Positions 5,567-54,375 of a DNA stretch of 64,000 nt are shown in pieces; the stretch's first letter is position 1, and each line of letters begins with the position of its first letter. The notes below the pieces were generated by a model. It did not search any database. It worked only from the letters and a program-made list of their open reading frames with translations, and was not told the origin of the DNA. The DNA comes from Salegentibacter sediminis (GTDB lineage: Bacteria > Bacteroidota > Bacteroidia > Flavobacteriales > Flavobacteriaceae): NCBI RefSeq assembly GCF_002078605.1, contig NZ_MSJR01000010.1, positions 1-64,000 on the forward strand, read 5' to 3'. The translations under genes and the position numbers were made by a program.

Positions 5567-6493
5567 ATGGAAAAAGACACTAGAATATACATCGCCGGTC
5601 ATAGGGGAATGGTAGGCTCGGCTATTTGGCGGAAACTGGAAGCTGAAGGCTTTACCAATCTTATAGATAGAACTTCCAGGGAACTGGATCTGAGGCATCA
5701 GGAGTCGGTGGAAGCCTTTTTTGAGCAGGAAGAACCGGATGTGGTCATAGCTGCCGCGGCCAGGGTGGGAGGAATCCTGGCAAACCGGGACCATCCCTAT
5801 GAGTTCCTGGTGGAGAACCTGCAGATTCAGAATAATCTTATTGAAGCCTCCCACAGGCTGGAGGTGCAGAAATTTATCTATCTTGGAAGCTCATGTATCT
5901 ATCCCAAATTGGCCCCGCAACCCATTAAGGAGGAATACCTGCTCACCGGCCCCCTGGAACCAACCAATGAGACCTATGCAATCGCCAAGATCGCGGGGCT
6001 AAAGGCCTGTGAAGCCATCCGGAAACAATATGGCAAGGATTTTATCAGTCTGATGCCTACTAATCTTTACGGCTACAATGATAATTTCGATTTGGAGAGC
6101 TCACACGTTTTGCCGGCCTTGCTCCGGAAGTTTCACGAAGCAAAGATAAACGGAAATGAGCCCGTAGAAGTCTGGGGTAGCGGGAGTCCGTTGCGGGAGT
6201 TTCTGTATGCCGACGATCTGGCCGATGCGGTACACTTTGTCCTGGAACATAAGCTCCCGGAAAGCTATTACAATGTAGGGACAGGCAGGGAAATCAGTAT
6301 AAAAGAACTGGCTCTGTTAATCCAGGAAATCGTGAGGCATCGCGGGGAGATTAGATGGGATAAGACCAAACCCGATGGTACACCCCGAAAATTGCTGGAT
6401 GTGAGCAAGCTGAAGGCTGAAGGTTGGGAAGCAAGTACTTCGCTGGAAGAAGGGATCAGGAATACTTATACCTGGTATTGTAAGCAGTTGTGA
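5567..6493 (+). CDS. fcl: GDP-L-fucose synthase
   Basis: Epimerase-reductase that turns GDP-4-dehydro-6-deoxy-D-mannose into GDP-L-fucose. The 308 residues match the family length. Seen: AGHRGMVGSA near residue 10, YLGSSCIYPK with the catalytic Ser/Cys region, the YAIAK motif (YxxxK), and MPTNLYGYNDNFD typical of WcaG/Fcl. It lies 92 bases after gmd; the gap carries only short GATTACAC-like repeat words. No terminator is obvious before the repeat region at 6494. An alternative name is wcaG. Confidence 0.95.
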   Translation: MEKDTRIYIAGHRGMVGSAIWRKLEAEGFTNLIDRTSRELDLRHQESVEAFFEQEEPDVVIAAAARVGGILANRDHPYEFLVENLQIQNNLIEASHRLEVQKFIYLGSSCIYPKLAPQPIKEEYLLTGPLEPTNETYAIAKIAGLKACEAIRKQYGKDFISLMPTNLYGYNDNFDLESSHVLPALLRKFHEAKINGNEPVEVWGSGSPLREFLYADDLADAVHFVLEHKLPESYYNVGTGREISIKELALLIQEIVRHRGEIRWDKTKPDGTPRKLLDVSKLKAEGWEASTSLEEGIRNTYTWYCKQL

Positions 6494-6561
6494 TTTCTCA
6501 GTTCCTGGTTTGTGGTTTATTGTTTGGGGGTTGTTGTTCTCTTTTCTTCAAGTGTCAAGAC

Positions 6562-6634
6562 CGTCATTGCGAGGAAACATCTGACTGGAAGGAGAATGTT
6601 GACGTGGCAATCCTTTGGATGGGGAATTGAGAGT
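6562..6634 (+). repeat. CGTCATTGCGAGG dispersed repeat, copy 1
   Basis: About 73 bases running from CGTCATTGCGAGGAAACAT through GTTGACGTGGCAATC to GGGAATTGAGAGT. Five further copies lie at 29354, 29833, 30724, 31678 and 31946. A GTTCTC word array sits just upstream, as with most other copies. Confidence 0.85.
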
Positions 6635-8005: not shown

Positions 8006-8044
8006 AACCCCTGCTTTTTTTTAAAAAAAGGTGGGGGTTTTTTT
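8006..8044 (+). terminator. Rho-independent terminator of the 7223 gene
   Basis: AACCCC with a T8 run pairs with A7GG...GGGGTT and is followed by seven T, 30 bases after the stop. Confidence 0.8.
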
Positions 8045-8478
8045 GTTCGGTTCTCAGTTCTCAGTTCTCTGTTGTGGGTTTTGGGTTATCGGTTTCCTCC
8101 CGTGTTTATAGTTTGGTATTCAACGTTCAATGTTCAATGTGGATTTTGGATTGTCAGGTTGAGCCCGACCGGAGGGAGGATGGTCGAAACCTTTTATACG
8201 GTTCTCTGTTCTCTGTTGGAAGTTTCTGGTCTCGGTTTGGGGTATGGTTTATTGTTTGGGGTTTGTTGTTCAAATGTTTTTAATTCGCTTCGCTCATTTT
8301 TCTTCACTTCGCTCAGAGGGGCTATTCTTTGATCCGCATTTTTAAGATTCCTGCGGCGTTCAAGGTTTGTTTCTTCGGTTTTCAGGAATACTTCGCCTGG
8401 GGGATAGTAAGGTACCAGATTCATCTATCCAATTGGAAATATGGCAAAGAAAAGGATGAGAAATTGCCTTTGTAAAGC
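8045..8478. repeat. GTTCTC/GGTTT degenerate word array and gene-free stretch
   Basis: Repeated words of the type GGTTCTCAGTTCTCTGTTG and GGTTTATTGTTTGGG fill 8045-8275, followed by TTCGCTTCGCTCATTTTTC-like words. Open frames here are low-complexity translations of the repeat. Similar arrays occur at 6494, 25797, 26225, 29160, 29325, 29800, 30675 and 31630. Confidence 0.65.
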
Positions 8479-9476: not shown

Positions 9477-9492
9477 ACGGCGGCGAAGCCGT
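9477..9492 (+). promoter_or_regulatory. GC-rich leader hairpin, candidate antiterminator recruitment site
   Basis: ACGGC-GGCGAA-GCCGT folds as a 5-bp hairpin in the otherwise AT-rich leader, about 60-130 bases after the candidate promoters. NusG paralogues such as RfaH load at a small hairpin of this kind (ops). The link to the upxY product at 30917 is inference. Confidence 0.35.
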
Positions 9493-9499
9493 ACCTGGT

Positions 9500-9770
9500 T
9501 TAGTCGGTAGTCTTTAGTTTTTAGTCGGTAGAAAGTGGAGAGTGGAAAGTGGAGAGTGGAAAGTGAATTCTTCTTGACTATAAAAGTTTACCGTCTACAG
9601 ACTAAGTCTAGATCTAAGGCCTAACCACTACCGTGTAGAGATTAAAAAATATCGTCTAACGACTACAATCTAACGACTAACAGAAATTACCGTCTAAAGT
9701 CTAACGACTACAGACTAATAAAAAACCCAATCTATCGTCTACGGACTAACAACTAACGACTAATCTTGCA
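9500..9770. repeat. GTCTA/GACTA and GTGGAAA degenerate word arrays
   Basis: About fifteen imperfect GTCTAACGACTA-type words occupy 9500-9770, interrupted at 9531-9566 by four GTGGAAA/GTGGAGA words. The latter are the same words found in frame inside the next gene (10201-10267). Shorter GTCTA/GACTA runs occur at 2700-2770, 9240-9270 and 22497-22530. Confidence 0.7.
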
Positions 9771-9960: not shown

Positions 9961-11382
9961 ATGAACAAAGAAAACATTAAAATAGCCATAATTGGCTTAG
10001 GCTACGTAGGGCTGCCCCTGGCGAGGCTTTTTGCGACGAAGTTTCCTGTGATAGGATACGATATTAATGAGGCTAGAGTGGCGGAGCTTAGGCGTGGTCA
10101 CGACTCTACCCTGGAAGTGGAGGATGATATTCTTCAGTCCGTTTTAGTGGACTTCTCGATACATTCTGAAGATCACTCCCGTGCTCTTCAGAACACTCGA
10201 AGAGGAGAGTGGAAAGTGGATTCTGAAATGAAGGGAAAAGTGGAAAGTGGAGAGTGGAAAGTGGAGGAAAATGATGTTGCAATTGAAGTTGCACCTGCTG
10301 CTACGGGGCTTTATTGTACGACTGACCTGGAAGATATTGCCGATTGCAACTACTACATCATCACCGTACCCACCCCAATAGACAAAAACAACCGCCCCGA
10401 TCTTACTCCGCTATATAAGAGCAGTGAAAGCGTAGGGAAAGTTTTAAAGAAAGGTGATATCGTGATCTATGAATCTACAGTTTATCCCGGGGTGACTGAA
10501 GACGAATGTGTCCCGGTGCTGGAAAAAAGCAGCGGACTCAAATTCAACGAAGATTTCTTTGTGGGTTATTCGCCGGAACGTATAAATCCTGGAGATAAAG
10601 AACATACCGTAGAAAAAATATTAAAAGTAACGGCAGGCTCTACACCCGAGATTGGTGAGAAAGTAGATGCTTTATATAAAGATGTGATCACTGCCGGGAC
10701 GCATTTAGCACCGACTATTAAAGTGGCTGAAGCTGCTAAGGTTATAGAAAACTCGCAACGGGATATTAATATCGCTTTTGTCAATGAGTTGGCTAAGATC
10801 TTTAATAAGATGGAGATCGATACCAACGATGTTTTGGAAGCAGCGGGTACCAAATGGAACTTTTTGCCGTTTAAACCCGGTCTTGTGGGTGGGCATTGTA
10901 TTGGGGTAGATCCTTATTACCTAGCGCAAAAAGCCCAGGAACTGGGCTATCACCCGGAGATTATTCTTGCTGGAAGGCGTATGAACGACTCTATGGGGCA
11001 ATATGTAGCCTCAGAAGTTATCAAATTGATGCTGCAAAACGATCTTAAAGTAAAAGGTGCCAACATTTTGGTATTGGGAATCACTTTTAAAGAGAATTGC
11101 CCAGATGTGCGGAATACCAAAGTGGTTGATGTGGTAAAAGAACTGCAATCTTATGGCACCAACATTACTATTTACGATCCCCTGGCAAATCCTGCCGAGG
11201 TGAAACATGAATATACATTAAAAACAACGAACAAGCTACCTAAGCAAAATTTTAATGCAATTGTTTTAGCGGTAGCTCATAAGGAGTTTTTAGATCTCAA
11301 TTTTGAAGTTCTTAAAAATGAAGAGGCGGTGGTGTATGATGTGAAGGGGGTTTTGGGTGAAAAAGCCAATAATAAATTATAG
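9961..11382 (+). CDS. wbpA: UDP-N-acetylglucosamine 6-dehydrogenase (WbpA type) carrying an in-frame repeat insertion
   Basis: NAD-dependent oxidation of UDP-GlcNAc (or UDP-GalNAc) to the uronic acid, first step of the ManNAc(3NAc)A route in the cytoplasm. Seen: GLGYVGLPLARLF (residues 12-24), TVPTPID, YSPERINPGD, KVIENSQRDINIAF, and the catalytic Cys in GGHCIGVDPYYL. I chose ATG 9961; the frame also opens at a TTG at 9943. The product is 473 residues, about 40 more than usual. Residues ~64-103, between DDILQSV and GLYCTTDLEDI, are encoded by a conserved-arm palindrome plus GTGGA repeats, a spot that is a surface loop in relatives. Substrate choice (GlcNAc versus GalNAc) is inferred from the wbpD/E/B neighbours. 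Confidence 0.92.
   Translation: MNKENIKIAIIGLGYVGLPLARLFATKFPVIGYDINEARVAELRRGHDSTLEVEDDILQSVLVDFSIHSEDHSRALQNTRRGEWKVDSEMKGKVESGEWKVEENDVAIEVAPAATGLYCTTDLEDIADCNYYIITVPTPIDKNNRPDLTPLYKSSESVGKVLKKGDIVIYESTVYPGVTEDECVPVLEKSSGLKFNEDFFVGYSPERINPGDKEHTVEKILKVTAGSTPEIGEKVDALYKDVITAGTHLAPTIKVAEAAKVIENSQRDINIAFVNELAKIFNKMEIDTNDVLEAAGTKWNFLPFKPGLVGGHCIGVDPYYLAQKAQELGYHPEIILAGRRMNDSMGQYVASEVIKLMLQNDLKVKGANILVLGITFKENCPDVRNTKVVDVVKELQSYGTNITIYDPLANPAEVKHEYTLKTTNKLPKQNFNAIVLAVAHKEFLDLNFEVLKNEEAVVYDVKGVLGEKANNKL
10151..10200 (+). repeat. Palindromic element inside the wbpA reading frame
   Basis: ACTTCTCGATACA, perfect 9-bp stem TTCTGAAGA / TCTTCAGAA (10164-10172 with 10185-10193, 12-base loop), then CACTCGA. 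Both arms match the intergenic copies at 6668, 9007, 25980, 27470 and 29685. It is read in frame without a stop. Confidence 0.88.
10201..10267 (+). repeat. GTGGAAA word array inside the wbpA reading frame
   Basis: Words GAGAGTGGAAAGTGGA occur twice around a TTCTGAAATGAAGG spacer and encode RGEWKVDSEMKGKVESGEWK. The identical words occur non-coding at 9531-9566. Confidence 0.85.
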
Positions 11383-22443: not shown

Positions 22444-22578
22444 GTTTTGGTTGTGCCCCGATAGCTATCGGGACGGGATGACGGAACAAAAAAACTACCA
22501 ACTAAAGTCTAAAGACTACTGACTAATATTAAGGAATAATTAACATAAATCAATATATTCGCACAAATTTTGAAAATA
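22444..22578. promoter_or_regulatory. Short intergenic region with a possible wza promoter
   Basis: Contains a CCCGATAGCTATCGGG palindrome (22456 region), a GTCTAAAGACTA word run (22500-22530) and TATATTCG (22554-22561), one mismatch from the -7 consensus, before wza. Confidence 0.4.
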
Positions 22579-25791: not shown

Positions 25792-25921
25792 TTCAGTTTT
25801 CGGTTGTGAGTTCTCGGTTGTCGGTTATGGGGTCTCAGTTTCACCGGGTTTCTGGTTTGTTGTTTGGTGTTCATGGTTTAATATTCAAGGTTTAAGGTTT
25901 TTGTCTTAATTCTTTAAACGT

Positions 25922-26060
25922 ACGTTGACTTCGAGTTTTTTTATGAAGCGATAGCGGAATAAAAAAAGTATCGAGAAGTCTTGATTAGTACAAACTTCTT
26001 AGCTGTTCTCGATACACCTTTTCTGCGCTAGCGCTTCGAAAAGGCACTCGAACCCAACGG
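25922..26060. repeat. Conserved-arm palindromic element, inverted doublet
   Basis: Monomer 1: ACGTTGACTTCGAG ... AAGCGATAGCGGAAT ... GTATCGAGAAGTC (25922-25980). A TTGATTAGTACAAA spacer separates monomer 2: CTTCTTAGCTGTTCTCGATAC, stem CCTTTTC / GAAAAGG around GCGCTAGCGC, CACTCGAACCCAACGG (25994-26060). Confidence 0.9.
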
Positions 26061-27227: not shown

Positions 27228-27790
27228 ATATTATTAGGACTACTTTTCCCGCCACCCGTTAGGGTAAGGGGCGGAGCGGGAAAAGAGTAGAGAAATCTTC
27301 GTTTCACCCCTCCCGATAGCTATCGGGATCCTAGGCAATTATGAAATCTTCAAGCTTTAAGATTTAAGTAGTTGTAGTCCTTAAAACAGGGCGTTGACTT
27401 CGAGTGTTTTTTATAAAGCGATAGCGGAATAAAAAAAGTATCGAGAAGTCCTGATAAGTAAAAACTTCTAAGCTGTTCTCGATACACCTTTTCTACGCTA
27501 GCGCTTCGAAAAGGCACTCGAACCCAACGGTTAAGTTAATAAAGAGCGGGAAAAGAGTAGAGAAATCTTCGTTTCACCCCTCCCGATAGCTATCGGGACT
27601 AAAGGGAGCCGAAGATTTCTATTCGAGAACTAAAGGAAGGATTTCACATTAAGTTTCGCCCTTTTCCCGCCACCCTTTAGGGTAAGGGGTCAAGTGGGAA
27701 AAGATTTCTATTCTATACCAGGAAAACCAAATAAACAAGCTTCGAATACCGAATTAACAAATTAACTATTTCTAAGACTAATAATCATAC
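27228..27790. other. Gene-free region before wzi
   Basis: Contains the right copy of the long direct repeat and TCCCGATAGCTATCGGGA palindromes with AAAGGGAGCCGAAGATTTC words (27310 and 27590). CCGCCACCCGTTAGGGTAAGGGG words occur at 27250 and 27668, and again at 29580. No gene is seen. Confidence 0.65.
27362..27556. repeat. Long direct repeat, right copy, containing a palindromic doublet
   Basis: Second copy of the 26500-26688 unit, 862 bases downstream. The doublet spans 27390-27530 with intact TGTTCTCGATAC and stem CCTTTTC / GAAAAGG. Confidence 0.88.
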
Positions 27791-29684: not shown

Positions 29685-29753
29685 CTTACTTATAAACAGT
29701 TCTCGATACACCTTTGCTCCGCTATCGCTCTACAAAGGCACTCGAACTCAACG
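29685..29753 (+). repeat. Conserved-arm palindromic element, single copy
   Basis: TTACTTATAAACAGTTCTCGATAC, stem CCTTTG / CAAAGG around CCGCTATCGCTC, then CACTCGAACTCAACGGG. Confidence 0.85.
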
Positions 29754-29832
29754 GGCTTTGTTAGAAGAGAGGAGATTGTGCTTCGGTAGCTATCGGGATC
29801 GGTTTTGAGTTGTGGGTTCTCTGTTCCCGGTT

Positions 29833-29905
29833 CGTCATTGCGAGGAAACATTTGACTGAAGGGAAAATGTTGACGTGGCAATCTTTCTGTTGTGGAATTG
29901 AGAGT
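29833..29905 (+). repeat. CGTCATTGCGAGG dispersed repeat, copy 3
   Basis: CGTCATTGCGAGGAAACATTT to GGAATTGAGAGT; a GGGTTCTCTGTTCCCGG word lies directly upstream. Confidence 0.85.
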
Positions 29906-30486
29906 GGTATCTGAAATTTTTGTTGGATCCCCTCTCCCGAATCCATTCTGTTAACTATTTATCTCGACCATGGTTTAAATCATGGTATGCTGAGTGTTTG
30001 CACCTGCCTGCCTTAACCCCACCGTCTTTTCCGCTACCGCGAAAATGTCACCTCCCTTTGCAAAACTTCTGCGAGCTTTGAGTAAAAATACGTTATTTTA
30101 TTACCTCATTTTTACCAGCTAAATTATTATTCTCTGGATTAAAGGAACTTTTGGAATTGTCTGCCCTTTCATTTTTTGCTCGCCCAAAAAACGAAACAAA
30201 AAAGGGCGTCCTATGTGCAGGTATTTTTTTGGCATATGCCTTCCTCTTCCTCTGGTCGTCGGAGGCAGAAAAAACCGCAGATCGGAACCTAAATTTTCTC
30301 CAAGGCTTCGAAAATTTTTAACGGTCCCAACCTGCTACACTCACATAGGAAATTCGCTTTGCTCAATTTTCTAATCGAATCCCGATTCAACGAATTAACC
30401 CGCGGCCATCTTTTTGTTGAGGAATTGAGAGTCGATCTCTCCCTGCCGTGAAGGGAATCATTCAATATTAATTATGCTCCTCTTCT

Positions 30487-30590
30487 TCTCAGGATGAGAT
30501 TCCTCCTTCGTCGGAATGACAATGGGGAAAGACTTTTGGGGAAGATTTTAATAATCAGATGGGATTCCGGATCAAGTCCGGAATGACGCC
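30487..30590. repeat. REP-like hairpin group
   Basis: GATGAGATTCCTCCTTCGTC-GGAATGAC and GGATTCCGGATCAAGTCC-GGAATGACG, two small palindromes. The first recurs at 30853 and 32063, the second in altered form at 32130. Confidence 0.7.
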
Positions 30591-30723
30591 TTTCGGATAA
30601 ACTTCCTTCCTGCATCCCTTCATCACTCCATTGTTTTAACACTTAGCCTAAAAGAAGCCGAAGGTTTGAGGCCTTTTTCCTGTTGGCGAGTTTTTGGGTT
30701 CTCTGTTGTTCATGGTTTAAGCC

Positions 30724-30796
30724 CGTCATTGCGAGGAAACATTTGACGGCAGGGAGAATGTTGACGCGGCAATCTTTCTGTTGGGGAATTGAGAGT
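30724..30796 (+). repeat. CGTCATTGCGAGG dispersed repeat, copy 4
   Basis: CGTCATTGCGAGGAAACATTT to GGGAATTGAGAGT, preceded by GGTTCTCTGTTGTTCATGG. Confidence 0.85.
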
Positions 30797-30916
30797 CCGC
30801 CTCTCCCTGCCGTAAAGGGAATCATTAAATATTAAGTAAGCTCTTCTTCTTTTTAGGATGAGATTCCTCCTTCGTCGGAATGACAATAGGGGAGGTAAAC
30901 CCAAAAAAAGAAAGAA

Positions 30917-31417
30917 TTAGAGCACCTCCCTGGTCTTCACTACTACCGAAAATCCCATTTCGGGGAGGATGAGGCGCATTTGTTTTTTCCCGACTTCCCG
31001 CACGATGGCTTCTTTGCCCTCCAGGGAACCATTGTTGATCATAATCTTATCACCGGGGGAGATCTCGTTTATTTCCATCTGCTCAACCTCGTCGTTGTTG
31101 AGCCATTTCTCAATGGTTTCTATCTCGTGGTTGCGGACTACCGCCGGTTTCCCGAGCCAGTGCATATAGCGCACGACTCCCGGGACATTAAATACCAGGT
31201 TGCGTTGCTTTTCACGAAGTTTTACGAAGACATAAGATTTAAAAAGAGGAGTGCTTACCTTTTTCTTGCGATCGCTCCATGTACGAAGCTCGGTGATCAT
31301 CGGGCAATAGACCTGGACCCCTAATTGGTCCAGCCGCTGCGCGACTTTTTGTTCCGATCTCGGTTTAGTGTATAAGACGTACCACAACATATTATCTTTA
31401 TTTTGCGCGCTCTCCAT
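30917..31417 (-). CDS. upxY: UpxY-family transcription antiterminator (NusG paralogue)
   Basis: 166 residues. The N-terminal NGN domain is clear (MLWYVLYTKPRSEQKVAQRL, YCPMITELRTWSDRKKKV, PLFKSYVFVKL, VFNVPGVVRYMHWLGKP). The C-terminal KOW domain follows (SPGDKIMINNGSLEGKEAIV). UpxY proteins in Bacteroides prevent premature termination in the long leaders of capsule operons, each acting on its own locus. Here the gene lies at the right end of the capsule region, pointing inward. A leader of ~130 bases with a -7 element at 31554-31547 and a GC-rich hairpin (31436-31454) precedes it. The start could also be Met10 (31390). Confidence 0.92.
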   Translation of the reverse strand: MESAQNKDNMLWYVLYTKPRSEQKVAQRLDQLGVQVYCPMITELRTWSDRKKKVSTPLFKSYVFVKLREKQRNLVFNVPGVVRYMHWLGKPAVVRNHEIETIEKWLNNDEVEQMEINEISPGDKIMINNGSLEGKEAIVREVGKKQMRLILPEMGFSVVVKTREVL

Positions 31418-31435
31418 GGATAAGCGCTATTATGC

Positions 31436-31554
31436 CGGCGACACTAAGTCGCCGTTGCGAATCCGATTTCATCAGATACGGGAAATAAAGACCTTCTTGT
31501 AGGGTGTCTCAGAAATGAGGAGAAAAAGGTCAGTTAGTTAGTCAGACAAAATTA
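31436..31554 (-). promoter_or_regulatory. upxY promoter and leader hairpin
   Basis: On the minus strand a perfect -7 element TAATTTTG (31554 to 31547) is followed ~95 bases later by a 7-bp hairpin CGGCGAC-TTAGT-GTCGCCG, 19 bases before the start codon. This parallels the promoter plus GC-rich hairpin of the capsule operon leader at 9310-9492. Confidence 0.5.
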
Positions 31555-31677
31555 AGAACATTTTATGATAATCAGGCTTTTTTTCCGGGGTTTTCTGCGG
31601 AAGATCCCGGAGGGGTTGGGGCTGAGATTGTTGTGGGGTTCTCTGTTGTCTTTTCTCTTTTATTCTTGGTTTAAGGT

Positions 31678-31740
31678 CGTCATTGCGAGGAAACATAGGA
31701 CCGTAGGGAGAATGTTGACGTGGCAATCTTTTGGTTGGGG
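31678..31740 (+). repeat. CGTCATTGCGAGG dispersed repeat, copy 5
   Basis: CGTCATTGCGAGGAAACATAG to GGCAATCTTTTGGTTGGGG; shorter at its right end than other copies. Confidence 0.82.
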
Positions 31741-31778
31741 TAAAGGCTTGTTGGTATGTTCCGAAATGCTAAACTTCC

Positions 31779-31920
31779 GTCATCCCGGACTCGATCCGGG
31801 ATCTCATCCTGTTTTGCTGAGGCGATTGGGTGAGCTTGTTTTCGAAGATCTGTCCTTCCTTGTTAACTCTCAAAATTTCACTTCTATTATGAGACCCTGA
31901 ATCAAGTTCAGAGTGACGTT
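31779..31920. repeat. REP-like hairpins
   Basis: CGTCATCCCGGACTCGATCC-GGGATCTC (31779-31808) and GACCCTGAATCAAGTTCAGAG (31890-31915), related to those at 6755 and 30487. Confidence 0.7.
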
Positions 31921-31945
31921 CAATTAACTCCGTGCGGTTGAAGCT

Positions 31946-32018
31946 CGTCATTGCGAGGAAACATTTGACTGGAAGGAGAATGCTGCCGTGGCAATCTTTT
32001 TGTTTGGGAATTGAGAGT
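31946..32018 (+). repeat. CGTCATTGCGAGG dispersed repeat, copy 6
   Basis: CGTCATTGCGAGGAAACATTT to GGGAATTGAGAGT. It is the only full copy without a GTTCTC array directly upstream. Confidence 0.83.
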
Positions 32019-54212: not shown

Positions 54213-54375
54213 GCCTGTATTAGTGATTTTGAGAAACTCAACACGAATTCTTTAAGAAGGGTGAGTTTAAGTTGTAAAAGCGCGCCGTATCCCTCGGGAA
54301 AGCGGATTCTTGAGCAGCTTGTTAGCCCTAAACCTGATTTTAAAGAGTTTACTTCAAACCAATACTAATACAGGC
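54213..54375 (+). ncRNA. ssrS: 6S RNA (Bacteroidota/Flavobacteria type)
   Basis: About 163 bases between zapA and rny closed by a perfect 12-bp stem GCCTGTATTAGT / ACTAATACAGGC (54213-54224 with 54364-54375), followed by nine T (54376-54384). A second paired segment, AAACTC (54234-54239) with GAGTTT (54345-54350), and a large open middle fit the 6S layout: a long rod with a central bubble. 6S RNA binds the housekeeping RNA polymerase and imitates an open promoter. The genomic position beside zapA supports the call; identity was not checked against a covariance model. Confidence 0.8.

Follow-up and report, generated by a model that had tools for sequence, protein, structure and literature searches.

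Short repeats of unrelated kinds recur in frame within one loop of a nucleotide-sugar dehydrogenase in Salegentibacter

Described systems and the dehydrogenase insert

Rickettsia palindromic elements (RPEs) are, in the sections of PMC10969869 and PMC3733652 that treat them, short palindromic repeats lying in frame within open reading frames that probably stay functional. The REP sections of PMC3733652 characterize CGTC-tagged REPs by a CGTC end, a stem of 8–9 bp and a loop of 4–5 bases, name a 3-bp tail and head-to-head dimers as further features, and record REPs inside genes, in one instance (Xanthomonas recB) at the same site. Heptanucleotide direct repeats of the word TAACTGA are described, in the relevant portion of PMC4679880, from Beggiatoaceae, Cyanobacteria and some Bacteroidetes, where they are mostly intergenic. 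Coding insertion of short repeats is already known, then, from Rickettsia and from scattered intragenic REPs. Our literature search, covering journal papers readable without subscription, returned no report of in-gene repeats in Salegentibacter, none of repeats with RHPELVSGS, and none of a single loop receiving repeats from several unrelated families.

We analyzed 64,000 nucleotides of Salegentibacter sediminis contig NZ_MSJR01000010.1 (the window). A preliminary description had placed a palindrome and a GTGGA repeat in frame within a nucleotide-sugar dehydrogenase gene and had likened the arrangement to RPEs. Both repeat types were identified, the reading frame is open and the flanks are conserved. 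The likeness to RPEs, as those elements appear in the cited sections (PMC10969869, PMC3733652), is one of description: here too a palindromic repeat stands in frame inside protein genes, but the host belongs to another phylum and several unrelated kinds of repeat, including heptamer arrays, occupy one loop. Against the REP sections of PMC3733652, a second element of this genus, coding for RHPELVSGS in two other genomes (G009 and G002), has the CGTC end, the stem and the loop of a CGTC-tagged REP. The window palindrome, by contrast, is the longer of the two; its arms are fixed, its stem is exchangeable, and its copy in the window has no CGTC end; the copy in a third genome, G013, ends in AGTGACG, which is CGTC on the other strand. 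The TAACTGA repeats, on the portion of PMC4679880 cited, resemble ours as 7-base direct repeats, but our words are others, vary within an array and, when stop-free, occur inside genes as well.

The dehydrogenase gene (TviB/WbpA type by Pfam and NCBIfam matches; 473 aa plus stop) lies at 9961–11382 on the plus strand, and its frame stays open across the insert (ORF 9961–11379). The product has Pfam matches to all three domains (N, central and C) of the family UDPG_MGDP_dh. Its best NCBIfam match, TviB PRK15182, scored 532.9 bits, below the cut-off of 592, and it scored 401.1 against subfamily TIGR03026, above the cut-off of 189.8. Foldseek matched the fold to UDP-ManNAc dehydrogenases and relatives, which confirms the fold and nothing more. 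With the loop left out, dN/dS was 0.05–0.07 against three homologs (L014–L016); the enzyme has therefore been under purifying selection, though the value includes the period before insertion. Pfam searches of 10 hand-picked ORFs among the 29 in positions 1–40000 (one of the ten without a match) found GDP-mannose dehydratase and epimerase families upstream and, after those, an aminotransferase, an oxidoreductase, a flippase-like protein, a glycosyltransferase, a DUF354 protein, a Wzz/GNVR protein and Wzi. This neighborhood is a polysaccharide cluster. The sole Rfam match in the window was 6S-Flavo (RF01685) at 54236–54350; at the gathering score, the repeats themselves had no match in the window.

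Between the flanking peptides LEVEDDILQS and LYCTTDLEDI the window gene codes for 58 residues, against 15 in its own paralog (L028, on contig C12), a net gain of 43. The insert, on the plus strand throughout, begins with an in-frame palindromic repeat at 10146–10202, 57 bases that are identical to a copy in a paralogous gene of G013. Its core (10156–10201) consists of the 5' arm TCGATACA (10156–10163), the 5' half of a 9-bp stem, TTCTGAAGA (10164–10172), a 12-base loop, the 3' half of the stem, TCTTCAGAA (10185–10193), and the 3' arm CACTCGAA (10194–10201); the stem pairs perfectly over its 9 bp, and the arms, found by arm pattern search, are imperfect inverted repeats. A heptamer pattern search delimited two in-frame blocks of GTGGAAA/GTGGAGA words behind it, one at 10202–10220 and one at 10240–10265 that codes for VESGEWKVE. 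GEWK and VDFSIHSEDHSR are parts of the peptide coded by the insert. The remaining extra residues, ENDVAIEVAPAAT (10266–10305), have no counterpart in the paralog and no recognized origin. The interval first proposed, 10151–10267, was right for the two recognizable repeat parts. The insert of about 40 residues is real, but the gain is 43 and 10266–10305 also lacks a counterpart; and the insert, in frame in both its parts, involves two different kinds of repeat.

In an AlphaFold model of fair quality only (36 sequences, mean pLDDT 78.8, pTM 0.70), residues 71–111 fall below pLDDT 50 and are flanked by a helix (55–61) and a strand (116–120), in keeping with the predicted loop; a short helix is modeled at 72–80, within the insert, and two further weak stretches at 299–316 and 381–385. 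In a solved chain, 4r16, 11 residues separate the two aligned parts at the loop position.

The same loop in the genus and among relatives

The dehydrogenase is present in all 15 genus genomes. Twenty genes were compared at full length, in two lineages: b, with six (window, G010, G009, G002, G012 and G006), and a, with 14. Loop length is 37–58 residues in all six b genes; among the 14 a genes it is 15 residues in 12, 37 in G013 and 20 in G003. The contents of these loops differ in kind and in order. The window gene has the palindrome followed by heptamers; the a-lineage gene of G013 has heptamers followed by the palindrome; that of G003 has a heptamer alone. The loop of G009 holds one full and one half copy of RHPELVSGS, and that of G002 a single RHPELVSGS whose DNA has three mismatches to the REP pattern. 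The loop of G006 probably carries a decayed form of the same REP, SYPEQDLESNTI, and that of G012 a decayed palindrome, VDFSTHSENHVAKLQSPRS, to judge by 39 of 57 bases agreeing with the window in a gap-free alignment. No repeat was confirmed in the loop of G010. This recurrence of several repeat families at one loop, as we read the sequences, goes beyond what the preliminary description had envisaged.

The peptide RHPELVSGS is coded by CGTCATCCTGAACTTGTTTCAGGATCT, a REP of the CGTC type; in G009 and G002 this element has CGTC at one end, 8 bp of stem and 5 bases of loop, with variants showing paired changes. REPs of this type (up to two mismatches) occur in 14 of the 15 genomes. At that threshold G002 has just two copies, neither of them inside the dehydrogenase gene, and a 200-kb sample of G009 has eight outside ORFs and none inside.

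Among 80 named relatives the loop measures 5–17 residues in 73 and 21–49 in seven. The seven longer loops are those of a Salegentibacter contig (37), a Chryseobacterium (49) and five others of 21–32 residues without recognized repeat (L122, L090, L132, L139 and L130). Alignment with orthologs, which the preliminary description had called for, showed the insert to be absent from 12 of the 14 a-type genus genes and from most of the 80 relatives; a conserved, constrained domain shared by orthologs was looked for and not seen. Since the loop is varied among the named relatives, its length varies generally and repeats are just one way of filling it.

The 49-residue loop of Chryseobacterium sp. VAUSW3 (L128, 3163–3309) contains repeat-like pieces, CTGAGCGCAGTCGAAGG. 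GAG.GCAGTCGA pieces, present there and in the loops of G009 and G010, resemble a further known repeat. Their pattern, TCGAGYRCAGTCGAG, was not counted as a family, having been found in only two other places among the loci read (G014 and G002) and not at all in the G009 sample. In another genus of the family (G254, L352) the loop carries a palindrome, TCCTCCGCTAAAGCTACGGAGGA, coding for SSSAKATEDK, likewise not counted as a family, having no second copy in a 200-kb sample of that genome. Three dehydrogenases (L025, L020 and L030) have N-terminal extensions with repetitive peptides, PSLQVPGSPGTQSSKSPSFQG in L025.

The repeats elsewhere in the genome and the genus

The arm pattern TCGATACA-N8..38-CACTCGAA has four occurrences in the window, where 100 shuffles gave a mean of 0.00; the three copies besides the dehydrogenase one lie outside convincing ORFs, at 26009–26052, 27479–27522 and 29703–29746, all on the plus strand. 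The whole genome has 11 copies, and the genus 65 exact copies in 13 of the 15 genomes, with reversed controls of 0 in both searches. Stems vary yet pair: counted over up to 9 inner positions on each side, 77% of positions were Watson–Crick in 61 distinct copies, while with the halves shuffled among copies (1000 shuffles) pairing averaged 34% and never exceeded 43%. With up to three mismatches allowed, the stem of the window palindrome, TTCTGAAGATCACTCCCGTGCTCTTCAGAA, was found in only one of 299 family genomes, that of the window itself; the genus members in this sample were G000 (the window genome), G004 and G006. Outside its own genome the exact stem was found only in G013, and no intergenic donor copy was found among the genomes searched.

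At least seven of the 65 exact copies are coding, with 40 examined (38 by ORF scan and two by position), and ORFs of 100–187 residues across other palindromes were judged doubtful and left out of the count. All seven fall in two loops, that of the dehydrogenase (G000, G013) and that of a glycosyltransferase (G001, G005, G006, G008, G014). The latter, a double GT4-type enzyme, has a loop near RGI that contains, in the window genome (contig C18, L253), heptamer peptides of the FKVQ and GTGGAAA types. Compared in 14 of the 15 genomes (G012 was left out), the loop has an exact palindrome in the five just named, a changed palindrome in G004, G007 and G010, heptamers in G000, G002, G003 and G013, and neither repeat recognizably in G009 and G011. 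In G005 and G014, neighbors in the dehydrogenase tree (support 86), the palindrome has opposite orientations at one and the same place and is in frame both ways, as QFECPDGSRDVSR and FSIHPDSRRDTR, the two loci (L259 and L261) having 55 bases in common in reverse complement. Glycosyltransferase matches with stop codons occurred in G010, G011, G012 and one of those of G005. Two glycosyltransferase genes are fused in some genomes and separate in others (L254, L256, L260, L264), and the linker of the fused ones looks heptamer-coded, to go by TTDNPQLTTDN in G006. A methyltransferase on contig C4 (PF13578) also has heptamer-coded loops of variable length, the loop frame being open in each of the 14 genomes (of 15) compared.

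The pattern GTGGAAAGTGGA (up to one mismatch) occurs 10 times in the window; 100 shuffles gave a mean of 0.36 and at most 3. With the same tolerance GTGGARAGTGGARAGTGGA gave 40 partly overlapping matches, all in G000, G003 and G013, while the control had none, and the GTGGARA triplet is confined to three of the 15 genomes, the very three with the heptamer in the dehydrogenase loop. The nearest other heptamer copy is upstream of the gene, in a non-coding plus-strand array of period 7 (9489–9590) in which TAGTCGG words pass into GTGGAAA words. Period-7 arrays outside ORFs were seen in the window at 6490–6548, 8027–8271, 9489–9590, 22489–22545 and 25840–25916; along them the words change (TAGTCGG to GTGGAAA) while the 7-base phase holds. 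Of 23 arrays checked, five lie wholly within ORFs (one in the window gene, one in the methyltransferase, three in the glycosyltransferase), all of stop-free words, and six made up of words like TAGTCGG or CTAAAGA are located outside ORFs or just overlap the end of one.

All 11 exact palindromes of the window genome, and four of its five heptamer clusters, are in contigs C2, C4 and C18, three of 22 contigs with 12.4% of the bases. Two of the three, C2 and C18, are plainly glycan clusters. The third, C4, is one only in part: besides an epimerase and a GNVR/AAA protein, its mixed content includes an ABC protein and a 3-hydroxyacyl-CoA dehydrogenase. Pfam assignments in these repeat contigs come from hand-picked ORFs (5 of the 16 of L279, 5 of the 13 of L283). 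A scan of 128 kb from the three contigs, a looser lag-7 version used in place of a too strict first one, gave 20 segments at lag 7, against 0–3 at lags 4–6 and 8–13, and 9 at lag 14; the stretches were picked with the palindromes already in view, several of them around known matches, so the scan is not blind. In 336 kb elsewhere lag 7 (6 segments) was not commoner than lag 6 (5), with 4 at lag 8, and three of the six came from C1:730–750 kb, a stretch picked for its known heptamer.

GTAG REPs moved by RAYT transposases offer a model for mobilization, resembling the present case in being dispersed palindromes; Y1_Tnp matches number 43, in 14 of the 15 genus genomes. The resemblance ends there: beside the 30 of those 43 loci that were read we found single arms only and no full element, and RAYT mobilization was rejected. 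The RAYT-like Y1_Tnp gene of the window genome itself (contig C22, L001) is ringed by different palindromes, of the CCACGGTTGAAACCGTGG type. IS200-like transposase copies (L194, L195, L206, L207, L212, L213, L217) have at their 3' end an 8-base arm, TTCGAGTG, then a hairpin (ATTCCAA/TTGGAAT). This arrangement, like half of the palindrome studied here, may be a single chance match, since these are copies of one element. Another dispersed element, CGTCATTGCGAGGAAACAT...GACGTGGCAATC, has five copies of 99 bases in the window, at 6536–6634 and within 29807–32018.

The claim that the repeats move can be judged from the block common to the window and G013 genes. Outside the loop these genes are 76% identical in DNA, with synonymous change saturated, and the longest identical runs elsewhere are 11 bases upstream of the insert and 23 downstream; within it, 57 bases are identical. 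This piece has therefore moved from gene to gene, or entered both, lately, and by this comparison the palindrome block is one that the two genes came to share recently. Movement is supported to this extent, but at the 30 Y1_Tnp loci read no transposition machinery could be tied to the repeat. In a tree built without the loop, the window gene groups with those of G010, G009, G002 and G006 (support 100) and next with that of G012 (91), while the G013 gene groups with that of G003 (86) and with the a-lineage paralog of the window genome (66).

How the loops may have been filled

We consider it probable that repeats abundant in and near glycan clusters have been captured repeatedly by indel-tolerant loops, being stop-poor, and have then decayed, inverted or been exchanged. 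Three kinds of repeat, namely the palindromes with their fixed arms and exchangeable stems, the CGTC-type REPs and the period-7 arrays, are dense in stretches of this genome with polysaccharide-synthesis genes and would enter coding DNA through some copying or recombination step. Most insertions would break the gene, the survivors being those that keep the frame open and whose peptide lies in a disordered loop. The frame is likely to stay open: the window palindrome is free of stops in four of six frames, and the 7-base unit is frame-independent, giving an identical 7-residue peptide whichever frame of a strand is read (VESGKWK for GTGGAAA). When constant ends are added to the 61 distinct palindrome copies, any one frame is open in 27–41 of them. 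The dehydrogenase loop, between helix 55–61 and strand 116–120, would have taken up repeats on more than one occasion and of different kinds, and captured repeats would subsequently decay, invert or pass between genes. The loop would be neutrally tolerant and the enzyme presumably still works. The number of independent insertion events is uncertain, as the palindromes of the window and G012 genes may go back to one old insertion. Some weight against this reading comes from long loops in which no repeat was recognized, namely those of the five named relatives and of G010, together with the tail of the window insert, and also from the scarcity of the CGTC-type REP in G002 and the failure to find an intergenic donor among the genomes searched.

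A role of the repeats in DNA or RNA, as recombination sites for glycan-gene exchange or as transcript hairpins, with the protein merely tolerant, seems to us unlikely as the reason for their being kept. Their concentration near glycan genes fits such a role, as do the 57-base block common to two species and the opposite orientations in G005 and G014, and the REP sections of PMC3733652 report a Thauera exopolysaccharide cluster flanked by REP arrays. Yet a number of the copies within genes look decayed (those in the dehydrogenase of G012 and G006 and in the glycosyltransferase of G004, G007 and G010), and as RNA the hairpin is unexceptional (z −1.67), with 14 of 200 shuffles folding as well or better. 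Less likely again is a single old insertion into the dehydrogenase, spread by horizontal transfer or gene conversion, with the loop diversified by substitution and slippage. The gap-free alignment of the window and G012 inserts, in genes whose flanks are 74.5% identical and which both fall on the b side of the tree, would suit it, and the G013 copy points to recent exchange; but the REP and heptamer inserts belong to recognizably other families, each found elsewhere in its genome, and two unrelated enzymes have similar loops. That selection has kept the inserts for a role in the protein, for instance as a segment for regulation or interaction, is very improbable: long loops in all six b-type genes speak for it, but these loops have no sequence in common, model confidence is low there and most named relatives (73 of 80) have short loops. 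Assembly or annotation error, to which repeats in draft assemblies are prone and which might touch G013, a metagenome bin 61% complete, can be set aside almost entirely, as the same kind of insert, with open frames, occurs in independent assemblies including the single-contig genomes G009 and G012.

Repeated capture by tolerant loops remains our preferred reading. A wider extension of it, possible but doubtful, is that repeats near glycan genes form a standing supply of protein segments, by which loops would be overwritten, inverted or swapped, arrays would serve as linkers in fusing glycosyltransferases, clusters would be shuffled and proteins reshaped. Within this one genus, repeats of unrelated kinds come together in the same few enzyme loops, with a recently shared block and opposite orientations to be seen among them. 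Salegentibacter offers a natural series of empty, filled and decayed loops in ordinary metabolic enzymes, one that allows testing whether in-gene repeats are neutral or a source of new protein sequence.
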